IMG/VR virus record: IMGVR_UViG_3300013131_000183
Coordinates: 1-29,144 of that record
DNA: 29,144 nucleotides
Direction: 5' to 3' (one strand)
Source of the DNA: a virus
Part shown: positions 6,869-27,738 of the stretch, piece by piece
Numbering within the stretch: the first letter of the stretch is position 1
Layout: every line of letters begins with the position of its first letter
Position numbers and translations under genes: made by a program
The notes under the pieces: generated by a model
What the model saw: the letters and a program-made list of their open reading frames with translations, nothing else
What the model was told of the DNA's origin: nothing
Database searches by the model: none

Positions 6869-8538
6869 GGTGCTGCCCTCAATCGTTCAAGTTCTGTCTG
6901 CAGTCGCTTGCGCATTGCGTCAGAGATGGGCCGGCCTCTGCCATCACGCAGAGCGCCGATGTCCATGTTCTCAATGTCCACGTTGGGCATTGCAAACCCG
7001 CCGTCCTCCAGTATCGTGCGCACGCTTTCGCTCACGCGCTGCTTGACTGCTTCGCGTTTCTTCGTGCTCTCTGCGCCGTCATACTGGCGAATCGCTTCTC
7101 GCGCCGCCTCCTCCGGCGGGATGTTCTTTCCGAGGTTGATGCGGTACAACTCGTCCAGCGCCAGCATCTTCTTGATCTTGGCCTCTCCTGGGTTCATTTC
7201 AAAGCCAATGATCCCAGCAGAAGATGTCAACAGGGACTTAGCCCGCCTGTAGTTCTCGTCCAGCAACTCTTTGCCCAGGCGCTTGGTTTGCTCATCTGAC
7301 AGGCCATTGCTGTAGGCCTCTTTCAAGAACTGATCCAGAGAACTGAGATAGCCAGACCTGATCATCTGGCTGACCATCAGTTCTGTCCCGACAGAAACAC
7401 CGGCAGCAGCGGCAGGCTTCAGCGCGGTGCGAGCAGACTCCAGGGACATGTGCCCGCCACGCACCAGATCATTGACGACAGCCCTGCGCCGGTCTGCCGT
7501 GGTCTTCGGGTCTAGTAGTTCCAACTCCAACGTTTTGGCAGCACGGGCAGCATCATCCTTGCGCCGATCATCTTCTGCCTTCTGCGCCGCCGCCTGGTCG
7601 ACGTTGTAGTCACGCACGCGCTTGCGGATGACCTCCTTGTCATCCTGCGACAGACCCTTGTAAATCTCGCTCAGTCTGCCCAGGTCGCCATCGGCCAGAC
7701 GACGCAGCGCCTTCAGCGGGTTGGCAGCGAACTCATCCTTCGTGGCCAGCGACACGATAGCATCGACCTTGGCCTGTCGGATTGTCGACAGCACAGTCTC
7801 AAGCGGCTTGGCATGCCCGGTTTGAGACACCAACCTCTCGAACGGAAGCAGCTGAGAACGCAGCATCTTCTCGACATCGACAGGCCGGCCAGTGCTCGGA
7901 TCAATGGTGCCTGACTGCGAGATGATGCCTTCGATCACCGGCTTTGCGGCATCAGCCGCTGCGTCCATGTTGGTGTTGACCAACGTGATCTCGCGCTTGA
8001 CCTGTTGCGCCGCGGCTTCCTCGAACAGAGACTTGCCGGCAATTGACAGCGATGCCCGCAGGCGCACGCTCTCCTCCGGGTCCAGGGCCGACACACTGGC
8101 CGCGTACCCATCGATCATGTCTCGCAGATCAGACTGCGCCTGCTGGAGATCAATGGTTCCGCCGGCTTTGACAACTGCCAGTGCCTGGCCGATCTTGCGC
8201 TGGCCCTCGGCCTGCAACTCGGCCGACAGCATGGCACCCTGCATCGCCTCGTAGGTGCGCTGGAACACGGTGCCAGCACCAGGCACTTGCAGACTCGGGC
8301 CTTCGCCCCTGACGGCTGCATCGATCTGCTCTTGCGTCAGCGGGTTCTCAATCGCGTACTGCTTGGCCTTGCGCTGCGCCTCTGTCTCGCGTTCGCCTTG
8401 CAGGAAGTTCAGCATGCGGTCAACCTGCTGGCTCATGCGGCTGTAGGCCTCCGCAGCTATCTGCAGGTTGGCGGTGCTCACCCGCGGCAAGTCCGCGTAC
8501 TGCACGCCCATCGGTTCGTAGCGAGGTAGCGTTGCCAT
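6865..8538 (-). CDS. Internal virion protein, coiled-coil (gp15-like position)
   Basis: This 557-residue protein is almost entirely charged helix rich in Ala, Gln, Glu, Arg and Leu, with few Cys or Trp. That is typical of T7 gp15-type internal core proteins that form a helical ring stack and are ejected with the DNA. The N-terminus is MATLPRYEPMGVQYADLPR, and heptad-like stretches occur around 20-70 and 300-370. There is no enzymatic motif. It begins one base after the stop of the gp14-like gene, and its stop overlaps the next internal protein start. The assignment rests on composition, size and order rather than recognised sequence identity. Confidence 0.72.
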   Translation of the reverse strand: MATLPRYEPMGVQYADLPRVSTANLQIAAEAYSRMSQQVDRMLNFLQGERETEAQRKAKQYAIENPLTQEQIDAAVRGEGPSLQVPGAGTVFQRTYEAMQGAMLSAELQAEGQRKIGQALAVVKAGGTIDLQQAQSDLRDMIDGYAASVSALDPEESVRLRASLSIAGKSLFEEAAAQQVKREITLVNTNMDAAADAAKPVIEGIISQSGTIDPSTGRPVDVEKMLRSQLLPFERLVSQTGHAKPLETVLSTIRQAKVDAIVSLATKDEFAANPLKALRRLADGDLGRLSEIYKGLSQDDKEVIRKRVRDYNVDQAAAQKAEDDRRKDDAARAAKTLELELLDPKTTADRRRAVVNDLVRGGHMSLESARTALKPAAAAGVSVGTELMVSQMIRSGYLSSLDQFLKEAYSNGLSDEQTKRLGKELLDENYRRAKSLLTSSAGIIGFEMNPGEAKIKKMLALDELYRINLGKNIPPEEAAREAIRQYDGAESTKKREAVKQRVSESVRTILEDGGFAMPNVDIENMDIGALRDGRGRPISDAMRKRLQTELERLRAAP

Positions 8539-23990: not shown

Positions 23991-24169
23991 CTGTAGGCCC
24001 TCTCGATGCTGCCCAGGAAGGCCCAAAGCTCTGCAGTAGCCAGAAGACCCTGGCCCGGGATGTCCCCGCTAACCTCGAGTGCCCAGTTCATGGCCTCTTC
24101 TGGCATCTGCATCCCTGCCCTGGCCAGCTGGACTACCGTCTCTGCTGTTTTGCGTGGCGATTCAACCAT
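23987..24169 (-). CDS. Unknown 60-aa protein between RHH and RusA genes
   Basis: The sequence is MVESPRKTAETVVQLARAGM, then QMPEEAMNWALEVSGDIPGQ and a helical end (LLATAELWAFLGSIERAYR). I do not recognise it. It is acidic and helical and could be a partner of the neighbouring ribbon-helix-helix protein. The start overlaps that gene by 37 bases and its stop overlaps the RusA GTG by four bases, which supports it as a real coupled gene. The ribosome site is weak. Confidence 0.55.
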   Translation of the reverse strand: MVESPRKTAETVVQLARAGMQMPEEAMNWALEVSGDIPGQGLLATAELWAFLGSIERAYR

Positions 24170-24333
24170 CTGGCGATTGACTCCATGCTGTGCTGCTGCT
24201 GCTCGATCCCGCCCAGGTGGCGCAGGATCAGCCGCTCGATCAGCGCCGTCCTGCTCTGGCCTGTCCTGGCCGCGGCCTGATCCAGACACTCCCGGGCGGA
24301 CTCGCTAAGCCTGATCAGGGTCTGTCGGCGCAT
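24133..24333 (-). CDS. Ribbon-helix-helix (CopG-type) transcriptional regulator
   Basis: This 66-residue protein is classic in layout: a strand (RRQTLIRLSE), helix A (SARECLDQAAARTG), turn and helix B (QSRTALIERLILRHL). A basic helical extension follows to the end. Such dimers bind short operators in DNA. It is the first minus-strand gene beside the divergent control region at 24334-24448, whose direct repeats and palindrome are candidate sites. Autoregulation and control of the plus-strand early operon are plausible. Confidence 0.78.
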   Translation of the reverse strand: MRRQTLIRLSESARECLDQAAARTGQSRTALIERLILRHLGGIEQQQHSMESIARWLNRHAKQQRR

Positions 24334-24373
24334 GCCCGATTGTTGCGCGGATCAGACATTAGGGAAAGTCCTA

Positions 24374-24419
24374 GGTGTTTGGGTGTTTGACAGTTCCCGG
24401 TAACGGTGTACAGTTCACC
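24374..24419. promoter_or_regulatory. Operator-like repeats in the divergent control region
   Basis: GGTGTTTG is repeated head to tail (24374-24381, 24382-24389) and overlaps the -35 box. An imperfect palindrome GGTGTACAGTTCACC (24405-24419) covers the -10 box, and ACAGTTC is repeated at 24390-24396 and 24410-24416. These are the likely targets of an early regulator such as the adjacent RHH protein. Confidence 0.6.
24387..24414 (+). promoter_or_regulatory. Sigma-70 promoter of the early operon
   Basis: A consensus -35 TTGACA (24387-24392) is followed by 16 bases and a weaker -10 TACAGT (24409-24414). Initiation near 24421 would leave a leader of about 28 bases before the 41-aa gene ATG at 24449. 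A matching minus-strand promoter for the RHH gene was not clear. Confidence 0.72.
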
Positions 24420-24448
24420 CCATCGACACCAACCCAGGAGCACGCAAG

Positions 24449-24574
24449 ATGACATGCACCTACTTCACCACCGAATCCGAAGCTCACGCCTACTGCGCCG
24501 CCCGTCGGGCTGCAGGGTTCCGGGCCTACGTTCTGTCGATGCGCGACAACTTCCACGAAGTCCGTTCCTTCTAA
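24449..24574 (+). CDS. Small early protein, 41 aa
   Basis: The sequence is MTCTYFTTESEAHAYCAARR, then AAGFRAYVLSMRDNFHEVRS and F. It looks like one beta-alpha-beta unit of the kind seen in tiny phage proteins with 'A..R..GF.AYV...D..HEV'. The function is unknown. AGGAG lies eight bases ahead of the ATG, and it is the first gene after the early promoter. Confidence 0.62.
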   Translation: MTCTYFTTESEAHAYCAARRAAGFRAYVLSMRDNFHEVRSF

Positions 24575-24602
24575 TCACACTCAGCACCCAGGAGAAAACA
24601 AA

Positions 24603-25274
24603 ATGACAAAGCAAAAGCAAACCACCGGACCGAAGATCAGCGTCACGTCCAAGCTTGACGGGATCCGTTCGTGGTCCCTCGAGGCCCTGGAAACCTGCCC
24701 GGGTTCCGTCAACGGTGATGGAACCCTTGTCGACGCATGCAAGGGCTGCTACGCCACCACCGGAAACTACAGGTTCGCAAACGTGAAGGCCCCGAGGGCC
24801 TACAACAAGCTGGACTGGCAGCGTCTTGACTGGACCGACAGCATGGTTAGGGCCCTGGATTCTGACCGCTATTTCCGGTGGTTTGACTCCGGCGATATGT
24901 ACTCGCTGGCCCTGGCCGAAAAGATCCTTGAGGTTTGCCAGCGTACCCCATGGGTGTCGCATTGGATCCCTACCCGCATGGCCAAATTCCCGAAGTTCCG
25001 GGAGGTCATCCGCAAGCTGCAGGCCCTGCCGAATGTCATGCTGCGATTCTCATCCGACAGCGTCTTCGGGGAGTTCCTGCCCGGCACGCATGGCAGCGTC
25101 ATAGTTCCGGATGCTGAGTCTGCCCCTGCCGGCACTGTTGTCTGTCAAGCCTATCAACATGATGGCAAGTGCAACGGCTGCAGGGCATGCTATTCGAAGG
25201 ATGTTCCGGTTATCGCCTACCCTGCCCACGGCCAGAAGATGGCCAAAGTAATCACCATTCGCCGGGCTGCATGA
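24603..25274 (+). CDS. GP88-like cysteine-rich phage protein
   Basis: This 223-residue protein has two cysteine clusters. CPG (C32) and CKGCYATTGNYRFANV (C46, C49) lie near the N-terminus, and a C-terminal C181 joins GKCNGCRACYSKDVPVIAYP (C190, C193, C196). The central WFDSGDMYS (D95) and SHWIPTRMAKFPKF match the 'gene product 88' family of mycobacteriophages (by memory). The clusters could hold an iron-sulfur centre or zinc. The D-S-G-D strand-loop and repeated beta-alpha pattern are reminiscent of a TIM-barrel enzyme, but no CxxxCxxC radical-SAM motif is present. The role is unknown. It has a good AGGAG site, and its stop overlaps the recombinase start. Confidence 0.68.
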   Translation: MTKQKQTTGPKISVTSKLDGIRSWSLEALETCPGSVNGDGTLVDACKGCYATTGNYRFANVKAPRAYNKLDWQRLDWTDSMVRALDSDRYFRWFDSGDMYSLALAEKILEVCQRTPWVSHWIPTRMAKFPKFREVIRKLQALPNVMLRFSSDSVFGEFLPGTHGSVIVPDAESAPAGTVVCQAYQHDGKCNGCRACYSKDVPVIAYPAHGQKMAKVITIRRAA

Positions 25275-25933
25275 TCATGGCCTATATCGCTTACTACCGT
25301 GTTAGCACGGATCGGCAGGGCCGTTCAGGCCTGGGCCTTGATGCCCAGCGTGAAGCCGTGCGCAGGTTTGCCGGCCGCGATCAGATCCTGGCCGAGTATG
25401 TCGAGGTCGAGTCCGGCCGCAAGACTGACCGTCCTCAGCTGGCCGCGGCGATGCAGCATGCACGCAAGGCCGGGGCCGTCCTGCTGATCGCGAAGCTGGA
25501 CCGCCTGGCCAGAAACGTGCATTTTATTTCGGGCCTGCTCGAGTCCAAAGTAGCATTCCGATGTGCCGACATGCCAGAAGCCGATGTCACGTTTCTACAG
25601 ATGATGGCTGTCTTCGCTGAGCTTGAAGCTCGCAAGATCAGCGAGCGGACCACGGCTGCGCTGCAAGCCCTGAAGGCCCGCGGCCGCAGACTGGGCAGCC
25701 CGAATCCGGCCGCAGGAGCGGCTGCAGCTGGCGCAGTCAAGGCCAGACAAGCCCAGGCCTATGCGCAGCGCGTAGCGCCGATCCTGGCCGATGTGAAGGC
25801 CTCTGGCGCACGCTCACTGCGCGAAATCGCCGCTGGCCTGCAGGCCCGCAACATCGCCACGCCGGCCGGATCTGCAACCTGGCATCCTCAGCAGGTGTCG
25901 GCCCTTCTGGATCGATTGGAGCTCGCAGCATGA
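25271..25933 (+). CDS. Small serine recombinase (resolvase/invertase type)
   Basis: This 220-residue protein has the resolvase domain AYYRVSTDRQGRSGLGLDAQ, with catalytic Ser12. KLDRLARN lies at 75-82 and FLQMMAVFAELEARKISERT at about 108-127. A C-terminal helix-turn-helix (SLREIAAGLQARNIATPAGS, then the WHPQQVSALLDRL end) is of recombinase type. It would exchange strands at short sites to invert, resolve or integrate DNA. No partner sites were found here. At this size it lacks the long zinc-rib domain of large serine integrases. ATG 25271 overlaps the GP88-like stop; ATG 25277 is possible. Confidence 0.87.
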   Translation: MIMAYIAYYRVSTDRQGRSGLGLDAQREAVRRFAGRDQILAEYVEVESGRKTDRPQLAAAMQHARKAGAVLLIAKLDRLARNVHFISGLLESKVAFRCADMPEADVTFLQMMAVFAELEARKISERTTAALQALKARGRRLGSPNPAAGAAAAGAVKARQAQAYAQRVAPILADVKASGARSLREIAAGLQARNIATPAGSATWHPQQVSALLDRLELAA

Positions 25934-26037
25934 AACAGCACTATCGCCCTGCCCGGCGCAGCACCTGGGCTGATCTAGGCGCGGCCGTGGTCATCGTCGC
26001 CCTGGCCCTGCTGATCGGTTACGCCCTCGCATCATGA
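25930..26037 (+). CDS. Single-helix membrane protein, 35 aa
   Basis: A basic N-terminus (MKQHYRPARRSTW) precedes a hydrophobic stretch, DLGAAVVIVALALLIGYALA, which spans one membrane pass. It overlaps both neighbours by four bases (ATGA junctions), which is the main evidence that it is real. The function is unknown. Confidence 0.6.
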   Translation: MKQHYRPARRSTWADLGAAVVIVALALLIGYALAS

Positions 26038-26348
26038 GCTCGAGCAGGCCAGACCAGGCCCGCGGCCAGGCCCTGCGCGACGCCGGAATCGCCCGCGTCG
26101 CGTCGCAGAGGGCTACTGTACTTGGGGCGCTGAAAAATCTCGCACGGAACCTCGCCTGGGAGCGCGAGGAAATATCGATCAACGATATACGCGAGGCAGC
26201 GAACCTGCCGAGCGACACCACCCCCCTCGTTTTCTCGGCCGTGTTCCGAGGCAGCGAATGGGAACCCTGCGGCTATGTCACAGCCGCTCACCCGCAGGCC
26301 CACGCACGCACCGTGCGCCTGTATCGACTCAGGAGAGAACAGTGGTAG
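26034..26348 (+). CDS. Putative winged-helix phage protein, 104 aa
   Basis: This 104-residue protein begins SSSRPDQARGQALRDAGIAR, then VASQRATVLGALKNLARNLA. REEISINDIREAANLPSDTT and LVFSAVFRGSEWEPCGYVTA follow, with a basic tail. The recurring phage pattern 'GxxRVA...A...ftxxDvr...P...gxxfra..r.Glixx.Gy....P..h' is known in early regions, and a winged-helix fold is likely. Its role could be in replication or regulation. The start overlaps the membrane protein stop by four bases, and the end overlaps the exonuclease start by seven. Confidence 0.58.
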   Translation: MSSSRPDQARGQALRDAGIARVASQRATVLGALKNLARNLAWEREEISINDIREAANLPSDTTPLVFSAVFRGSEWEPCGYVTAAHPQAHARTVRLYRLRREQW

Positions 26349-26998
26349 GCAAGGTCACATCCGACACCGTGATGAGCGCGTCACGGCTGCCGGCACTATT
26401 CGGCGTGTCGAAGTACTCGACACCGAACGATGAGCTGCGCAAGTCCATCGCCGCGATGGACGGCGCGGAGCGCGAGGACATCACCAACGAGGCGATGCGA
26501 TGGGGGAACCTGCTCGAGCCGCTCATCCTGCAGGAGTCCGTGTCTCGCCTGGGGCTGGATCCGAACGGGGTCTGCACCATCTGGCCAGAGGCGCAGCGCC
26601 ACCTCGAGTGGCCGCTGCAGTGCTCGCTCGACGGCACCGCCACCGGCGACGGCCGGCAGGTCGTCACTGATAAGGGCGCGGGAATCTATGTCATCGGGGC
26701 CGAGTCCATTTTCTTGGACGGCATCGGTGTGCTCGAGGCGAAGCTGACCAGGGTCTGGCCGGAACCCTCCCCCGCTATCTACCGTGGGCCGCTGCAGTTG
26801 CAAGGGCAGATGGCCATCATGAGTGCTACCTGGGGCGCAGTGTGCGTGCTGTATCAGGGTGTTGAGTTGCGCATCTTCCTGTTCGAGCAGGATCTGCGCG
26901 TGCAAGAGTCCATCCGCGATGCGGTGTGGGAGTTCGACGGCAAGCTGTCCCGGTATTACCAGACCGGGGAGATCGACCTGTATCAGGAGGCAAAGTGA
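26342..26998 (+). CDS. YqaJ/lambda-Exo-type recombination exonuclease
   Basis: This 218-residue PD-(D/E)XK nuclease has MRWGNLLEPLI (E59), CSLDGTA (D97) and VLEAKLTR (E132-x-K134). A downstream PLQLQGQMAI gives the conserved glutamine. Such 5'-3' exonucleases resect DNA ends and hand 3' tails to an annealing protein, encoded next. The GTG at 26342 has AGGAGAG ahead. Upstream in-frame residues to 26258 lie inside the winged-helix gene and were excluded. Confidence 0.86.
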   Translation: MVGKVTSDTVMSASRLPALFGVSKYSTPNDELRKSIAAMDGAEREDITNEAMRWGNLLEPLILQESVSRLGLDPNGVCTIWPEAQRHLEWPLQCSLDGTATGDGRQVVTDKGAGIYVIGAESIFLDGIGVLEAKLTRVWPEPSPAIYRGPLQLQGQMAIMSATWGAVCVLYQGVELRIFLFEQDLRVQESIRDAVWEFDGKLSRYYQTGEIDLYQEAK

Positions 26999-27738
26999 GT
27001 GCTATCGCAAAGGCCTTCGTGGCCGCCAAGAAGGGCTTCGCCCCTGCGCTGAAGACCAGCAGCAACCCGCACTTCAAATCGAAGTACGCGGATCTCTCCG
27101 GCTGCCTGGAGGCAGTCAACGACGCCCTGCTGGATGCCGGCATCGCCGTGTATCAGGAGACGGCCGAGTGCTCGGACGGGGTCATCGTCGAGACGGTCTT
27201 CCTGCATGAGAGCGGCGAGGTGCTTCGCGGCGGGAAGCTCCACGTCCCGGCAGCAAAGTCAGACCCGCAAGGCTACGGGTCTGCACTCACCTACGCCAGG
27301 CGCTACAGTCTGATGGCTGCGTGCGGCATCGCCGCGGAGGACGACGACGGCAACGCTGCCAGCAAGCCAAAGCCGAAGGCCGAGCGGGGCGGCAACCCGC
27401 TCGACCAGATCCGCAGTGCAGGCAGCGGCGATCCCAAGCCCGAGCCGAAACCCGAAACCAAAGCCGGCCTGCCCTTGCTGATCCCGCGCAGTGAGACGCC
27501 GCACTCGTTTCACCCCGACATCGGGACATGGTTTGAAGCCTATGAGCGCATGGCTCGCACCGTTGCAGGCAATGGCAAGACGCCACCTCGGCAGGCCATG
27601 ACGAAGCTGCGCGAACTGCGCGAGGCCAACGAGGCCATGATGGGTCAGCTGTCGCCGGAGCAGAACGCCCGAGCTGCGGCTGCGTACAAGAAGCGCCTGG
27701 CAGAACTGGGTGCGCAGATCGAAGGAGATCCCCTGTGA
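26995..27738 (+). CDS. ERF-family single-strand annealing protein
   Basis: This 247-residue protein has the ERF signature SSNPHFKSKYADLSGCLEAV, then DALLDAGIAV and LHESGEV. DPQGYGSALTYARRYSLMAA lies at about 90-109. A disordered, Pro/Lys-rich linker (PKPKAERGG to PETKA) and a helical C-terminal domain follow. It pairs complementary strands and works with the exonuclease encoded directly upstream, like P22 Erf or lambda Red beta with Exo. GTG 26995 overlaps the exonuclease TGA by four bases with CAGGAGG ahead. The longer ATG frame from 26926 is a shadow. Confidence 0.9.
   Translation: MSAIAKAFVAAKKGFAPALKTSSNPHFKSKYADLSGCLEAVNDALLDAGIAVYQETAECSDGVIVETVFLHESGEVLRGGKLHVPAAKSDPQGYGSALTYARRYSLMAACGIAAEDDDGNAASKPKPKAERGGNPLDQIRSAGSGDPKPEPKPETKAGLPLLIPRSETPHSFHPDIGTWFEAYERMARTVAGNGKTPPRQAMTKLRELREANEAMMGQLSPEQNARAAAAYKKRLAELGAQIEGDPL

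Follow-up and report, generated by a model that had tools for sequence, protein, structure and literature searches.

Closest described systems

Aquatic phages commonly carry GP88 (Pfam PF17338, PHROG 1392), a gene still unexplained, and each scan for it matched at least hundreds of environmental phage contigs. In the open literature that we searched on GP88, on DUF5131 and on the "radical SAM mobile pair" we found no relevant paper, and none that assigns a chemistry to GP88. The described families with which it can be compared are DUF5131 (PF07505, Gp37/Gp68-like), together with the NCBIfam model TIGR04471 ("radical SAM mobile pair protein A"), and the radical SAM enzymes proper, whose canonical members carry the motifs Cx3Cx2C and GGE. 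Other cysteine spacings occur in recognised non-canonical members of this superfamily. For the recombinase that follows GP88 in the locus studied here, the closest described systems are Methylophilales phage MEP301, in which gp04, a protein with an N-terminal resolvase domain, is followed by gp05 (YqaJ) and gp06 (ERF), and "recombinase family" proteins on plasmids of Rhodobacterales, which have ParA, RHH and Rep genes as neighbours.

The DNA analysed (the window) is a linear virus record of 29,144 bp, possibly a fragment. The GP88 protein encoded in it is a full member of the family, with the same cysteine pattern and no essential difference. Its small serine recombinase (REC) is 36% identical to MEP301 gp04 and stands in the same operon order, but in MEP301 we found neither GP88 nor a small membrane protein gene between the recombinase and YqaJ. 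The plasmid proteins are about 50% identical to REC and share its length and its catalytic residues, whereas their setting is that of a plasmid, without the YqaJ/ERF operon. Taking the evidence below together, we consider it fairly likely that GP88 is a small, divergent, radical-SAM-like enzyme carried as early cargo, and that REC is an unrelated neighbour belonging to the phage recombination operon.

Organization of the early operon and its control region

In the left 24 kb of the window the minus strand encodes podovirus-type late functions, including the head-tail connector, the capsid and the terminase; the large terminase and its MEP301 counterpart share 74% identity. The late genes run leftwards and extend up to a gene for a DNA-binding RHH protein of the CopG/Arc type (24133..24333, minus strand; Pfam RHH_1, E 7.4e-6), the likely regulator of a divergent control region (24334-24448), beyond which lies the early operon on the plus strand. 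RHH genes are divergent to the recombinase gene in many relatives, too. The operon begins with a 41-aa ORF that matches no known family (24449..24574, plus strand) and continues with GP88, REC, a 35-aa protein with one helix, a 104-aa protein, a YqaJ exonuclease and ERF. A promoter scan of positions 24000-26400 gave a single promoter-like site, TTGACA-16-TACAGT at 24387-24414 on the plus strand; one match against 0.5 expected is weak taken alone. The earlier note had placed the GP88/REC set at the head of the early operon, and both the leftward late genes up to RHH and the position of the promoter-like site agree with this placement. The promoter region is 80% identical over 97 bp to that of the environmental contig L082.

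The control region also contains the element TTAGGGAAAGTCCTAG at about 24359-24374. It is one base shorter than the dyad-like element TTAGGGWAASYMCYTA and is not matched by the TTAGGGWAASYMCYTA pattern. TTAGGGWAASYMCYTA precedes the early operon in 50 of the 80 best REC loci; 18 GP88 loci that lack REC have it at this place too, and nearly every one of these loci holds a single copy. It is possibly an operator or a replication element. We rejected it as a target site of REC because GP88 loci in which we saw no REC contain it too. Another conserved upstream block, which we had first read as a site, proved to be RHH coding sequence. In L104, L114, L157 and similar loci, TGTATATC / GATATACA half-sites lie on both sides of a TTAGGG element upstream of REC, one of them within the spacer of a promoter-like sequence. 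They resemble operators to which the divergent RHH protein could bind.

Conserved cysteines of GP88

GP88 (24603..25274, plus strand) has 223 aa and scores 109.7 bits against the PF17338 profile (E 2.5e-31), well above the curated cut-off of 24.4; it is also a member of PHROG 1392 (E 1e-24). The earlier note had described seven cysteines in two clusters that flank a DSGD core. This holds with one refinement: the protein contains eight cysteines, seven of which are conserved, namely the three-Cys motif C32, C46 and C49 and the four-Cys motif C181, C190, C193 and C196, on the two sides of D95-S-G-D98 (SGD, 96-98), while C112 is the non-conserved one. The pattern is thus Cx13Cx2C-Y, then W-x-D-x-GD, then Cx8Cx2Cx2C. 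In 32 aligned relatives the seven cysteines, W93-x-D95-x-G97-D98 and H120-W121-x-P123-T124 are invariant. When the cysteine spacing was counted in 185 distinct GP88 stretches out of the fetched loci, C-x13-C-x2-C[YF] was exact in 180 and off by one in the other five, and the second cluster was kept in 182 of the 185. A cysteine pattern of this constancy is far beyond chance. The three-Cys site, W-x-D-x-GD and the HWxPT motif are conserved even between clades of GP88 that are only about 33% identical.

Comparison of GP88 with DUF5131 and with radical SAM enzymes

Profile searches link GP88 to DUF5131 in both directions. The GP88 of the window matches DUF5131 weakly (E 0.018), and the Pfam GP88 profile finds DUF5131 proteins in bacterial genomes above its own cut-off (E 5e-7). 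One of these DUF5131 proteins in turn matches TIGR04471 with an E of 3e-26; the link from GP88 over DUF5131 to TIGR04471 is transitive, and the cut-off of TIGR04471 was not reached. By eye, the DUF5131 motifs C-x7-C-x2-C-Y, SxSD and HxxQxLTKR could be aligned in matching order with C-x13-C-x2-C-Y, DSGD and HWxPTR of GP88, so that the elements C..C-x2-C-Y, SxxD and HxxxxTKR/PTR are common to both families. DUF5131 differs by its shorter Cx7Cx2C spacing and has no counterpart of the four-Cys site, the second one in GP88. That the two families are homologous is well supported. Profile-profile comparison between them was weak (E 2e-4, probability 44) and the same comparison with QueE was empty, both partly owing to the shallow GP88 alignment. 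A sequence search of the PDB with GP88, as a single sequence or as a profile, returned no meaningful match, and the PADLOC defence models matched none of the proteins tested.

The AlphaFold model of the window protein, built from 52 sequences (pLDDT 80, pTM 0.82), has six strands in order (22-24, 90-93, 119-124, 145-150, 165-168 and 204-207), which we read as a barrel. The three-Cys motif follows strand 1, and SGD stands directly after strand 2, which is the arrangement expected of a radical SAM barrel. A second model was made for a GP88 of a marine clade, about 33% identical to the first (pLDDT 88, pTM 0.86). VIA-align of the window model gave radical SAM enzymes at all ranks from 1 to 14 (Z 6.7 to 4.7), with ordinary TIM barrels lower; SuiB was at Z 6.7 (rmsd 4.0, 150 aligned) and QueE at 6.2, and LAM, ChlB, NifB, BtrN, TYW1, PqqE and BlsE were listed as well. 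For the second model ranks 1 to 14 were again all radical SAM enzymes (Z 5.8 to 4.7), among them QueE (5.8), viperin (5.6), BtrN (5.4), lipoyl synthase (5.3) and EpeE (5.1). QueE and BtrN are common to both lists. None of these Z values reaches 8, and in that range one match by itself carries little proof; Foldseek, used alone, found no significant match for the GP88 models in the PDB. Thus, the weight of the fold argument comes from two diverged models picking one superfamily, together with the chain of sequence profiles; the two models are not fully independent, since the alignments behind them share some sequences. Among viral models the best matches were other GP88, DUF7227 and Gp37/Gp68 proteins, followed at an insignificant E of about 0.1 by viral radical SAM proteins.

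The best fold matches, QueE, SuiB, BtrN, viperin, lipoyl synthase and NifB, share with GP88 three cysteines after strand 1 and an acidic glycine motif after strand 2. However, GP88 has Cx13Cx2C and SGD in the places of the canonical Cx3Cx2C and GGE, and the identity to these enzymes is very low (6-14%). Since GP88 itself lacks the canonical spacing and has no direct match to a Pfam or NCBIfam radical SAM profile, we use the label radical-SAM-like and do not call it a canonical member. We regard a radical-SAM-like fold of GP88 as likely. The metallo-enzyme that the earlier note had guessed at is in this way supported and narrowed to a predicted radical-SAM-like fold by the DUF5131/TIGR04471 profiles and the two model searches.

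Proposed chemistry of GP88

Starting from the motifs and how they are conserved, from the DUF5131 homology, from the position of the gene and from the fold predicted for its product, we infer metal clusters, a radical chemistry and a substrate. C32, C46 and C49 would hold a site-differentiated [4Fe-4S] cluster that binds S-adenosylmethionine, and SGD, in place of the usual GGE, would aid this binding; the product would be a 5'-deoxyadenosyl radical. The second site, formed by C181, C190, C193 and C196, may be occupied by a further [4Fe-4S] cluster or by a metal with a structural role. Judged from sequence and model, radical SAM catalysis by GP88 seems reasonably probable. A concrete proposed chemistry makes the family directly testable.

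Alternatively, GP88 could be a non-catalytic Fe-S or zinc protein, that is, a decayed TIM-like barrel which binds DNA or protein early in infection. The non-canonical spacing of the three cysteines would suit such a protein, the four-Cys site fits zinc equally well, and the VIA-align scores stay below 8. On the other hand, motifs that are kept between clades with about 33% identity fit an active site better than a scaffold, and the homologous DUF5131 matches a model which is named radical SAM. We therefore regard a non-catalytic GP88 as rather unlikely.

If GP88 is the radical-SAM-like enzyme that we favour, it would most likely act as infection begins, with a nucleic acid, a nucleotide or a host protein as its target, in host takeover or counter-defence. 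Such an early role is conceivable at somewhat less than an even chance, and a nucleic acid or nucleotide as the substrate is only a guess. It is tempting to speculate, as a tentative and somewhat doubtful extension, that GP88 represents a large phage-centred family of minimal radical SAM enzymes with two metal sites, which act as immediate-early effectors of counter-defence or takeover from the promoter-proximal slot of ArdC and would add a new chemistry to the early proteins of phages.

GP88 as proposed early cargo beside the recombination operon

The stop codon of GP88 overlaps the start codon of REC in an ATGA (25274 versus 25271), exactly as described before. This overlap implies coupled translation, and the pair is found again in L071, L078 and L079, separated there by small ORFs or a gap. 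Both observations would suit the view that GP88 and the recombinase are one functional module, either a mobile element or a pair for host takeover. However, co-occurrence in IMG/VR argues against the coupling that the earlier note had proposed: REC was present in three of the 80 best GP88 contigs and GP88 in none of the 80 best REC contigs, numbers that are lower bounds, since many of the contigs are short. GP88 has neighbours from several terminase families and is carried by unrelated phage backbones, and in L048, L063 and L064 it stands at the head of a YqaJ operon without REC; no large common partner was found among its neighbours. REC and the small membrane protein gene behind it are linked by an ATGA overlap as well, and this looks like the ordinary layout of a compact operon. 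For a mobile module in particular we found neither sites nor junctions, and elsewhere the neighbours of GP88 and of REC differ. A single module is thus largely refuted and highly improbable, while the gene organization described above, without a fixed coupling of GP88 and REC, is well supported.

The locus L082, which has the REC closest to ours among the matches listed (81% identical), also speaks against one module and suggests another explanation. Where the window has the 41-aa ORF and GP88 after the shared control region, L082 has ArdC (Pfam ArdcN, 2e-39; PHROG anti-restriction, 3e-88), followed by another small ORF and then by REC. Because ArdC stands there behind a similar promoter, we propose that GP88 occupies a slot for exchangeable early cargo. 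It looks like swappable early cargo, and its contact with REC would result from the insertion of cargo between the early promoter and REC. The host-takeover function considered in the earlier note is plausible for GP88 by itself, as a similar promoter drives the anti-restriction gene from the same slot in L082. ArdC was also found close to GP88 in L015, L045 and L163, the third case being given elsewhere as MW202796; this amounts to two of the 80 best loci and one named phage, which is suggestive but few.

The recombinase and its operon

REC (25271..25933, plus strand) is a small serine recombinase of the resolvase/invertase type with 220 aa (Pfam Resolvase, 3e-28) and an HTH-like C-terminal part, which reaches 18.6 bits against HTH_62, under the cut-off of 27 bits, and shows a conserved IA..L..R.I.T pattern. 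Among the 80 best REC loci, YqaJ is present in 60 and ERF in 54. The order is REC, YqaJ, ERF; genes for RHH, RusA or RuvC and a replication-type HTH protein are often divergent to this run. In the window REC is followed by the 35-aa membrane protein with a single helix (25930..26037, plus strand; overlapping the REC stop), which had been noticed before and was confirmed, then by the 104-aa protein (26034..26348, plus strand; phrog_27658, E 9e-7), which recurs in 17 REC loci, the YqaJ/RecE-like exonuclease (26342..26998, plus strand; start probably the GTG at 26342, the longest ORF beginning at 26258; Pfam YqaJ 1.1e-6, phrog RecE-like 5e-17) and the ERF single-strand annealing protein (26995..27738, plus strand; start probably the GTG at 26995, the longest ORF beginning at 26926; Pfam ERF 7.8e-21, phrog Erf-like 2.4e-41).

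In 39 of 52 unique loci REC is followed within 330 bp by a short ORF that encodes one hydrophobic helix, and in 30 of them this ORF starts within about 50 bp; random windows contained such an ORF in 6.5% and 3% of the cases, respectively, and it follows YqaJ in 4 of 57 and ERF in 5 of 52 loci. The difference between 39 of 52 loci and 6.5% of random windows links REC to this mini-membrane ORF, to which the 35-aa protein belongs by position. The encoded proteins have about 27-75 aa, one helix and no common sequence. The place is conserved, whereas the 35-aa protein does not belong to a conserved family. REC is part of a conserved operon of REC, mini-membrane ORF, YqaJ and ERF, the phage's own recombination operon.

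The Pfam domain PF07508 is a mark of large serine recombinases. For lack of this domain, the authors of the MEP301 study doubted that gp04 (ORF4) is a functional recombinase (PMC8024684). In our alignment of 27 sequences, MEP301 included, R10, S12, R54, D77, R78, R81, E119 and R126 are invariant, and to judge by these residues REC appears catalytically intact and active. Since the catalytic residues are invariant and PF07508 belongs to the large enzymes, the doubt is not decisive for a small recombinase. For MEP301-type phages, the printed doubt about the "resolvase" is thus set against a family which keeps all catalytic residues, often with a mini-membrane neighbour.

Possible roles of the recombinase

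The plasmid relatives of REC listed at about 50% identity are largely alphaproteobacterial and come from small plasmids; three of the four examined have partition-type genes (ParA or RHH) and Rep close by. These neighbours favour multimer resolution or a related upkeep role. By analogy, the chances that REC is a multimer resolvase are about even, and it would probably resolve multimers or rearrange a segment of the phage genome, as the plasmid relatives may do.

A role as integrase of a temperate phage was considered because a serine recombinase lies near the head of the early operon and resembles phage serine integrases over its catalytic part (phrog_95). However, with its 220 aa it lacks the full C-terminal half of the large serine integrases (PF07508, E 0.058, below cut-off), and the plasmid relatives suggest upkeep. 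A scan of 84,980 species genomes, which finds close relatives only, gave five REC matches; only one, on a MAG contig of 4.5 kb, was more than 60% identical, and integrated prophages with REC were not seen. An integrase is thus very unlikely.

REC might also invert a segment of the phage genome, such as a tail-fibre or promoter switch, given that its nearest solved structures in the PDB are the invertases 4m6f and 3uj3 and that phage invertases are known. Repeats and dyads gave no convincing recombination sites in the window, possibly a fragment, or in MEP301, and no paired inverted sites stand out in either, in agreement with the earlier note. In the relatives examined no perfect dyad with arms of at least 9 bases lies near REC, and in the window one is found, inside the YqaJ coding region. 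This makes an inversion function quite unlikely, and resolution of multimers or a related upkeep role remains our preferred reading of REC. A perfect 17-bp inverted repeat exists in the window (7620-7636 / 25001-25017); both copies encode EVIRK in unrelated proteins, and the repeat is probably due to chance.

A leader hairpin in related loci

Rfam gave no match in the window or in four relatives, including the leader hairpin described here, which was seen in relatives only, ahead of an early gene in 43 of the 80 best REC loci, and is absent from the window. It consists of TTCAAC, a 4-bp stem with a 7-nt loop AGATRAM, the sequence AAGGAGTT and the start codon; examples are L086:4137-4177, L143:5965-6003, L157:5737-5777 and L124:2814-2853. 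Changes on both sides were observed in all four stem pairs, and 98% of the cells pair.
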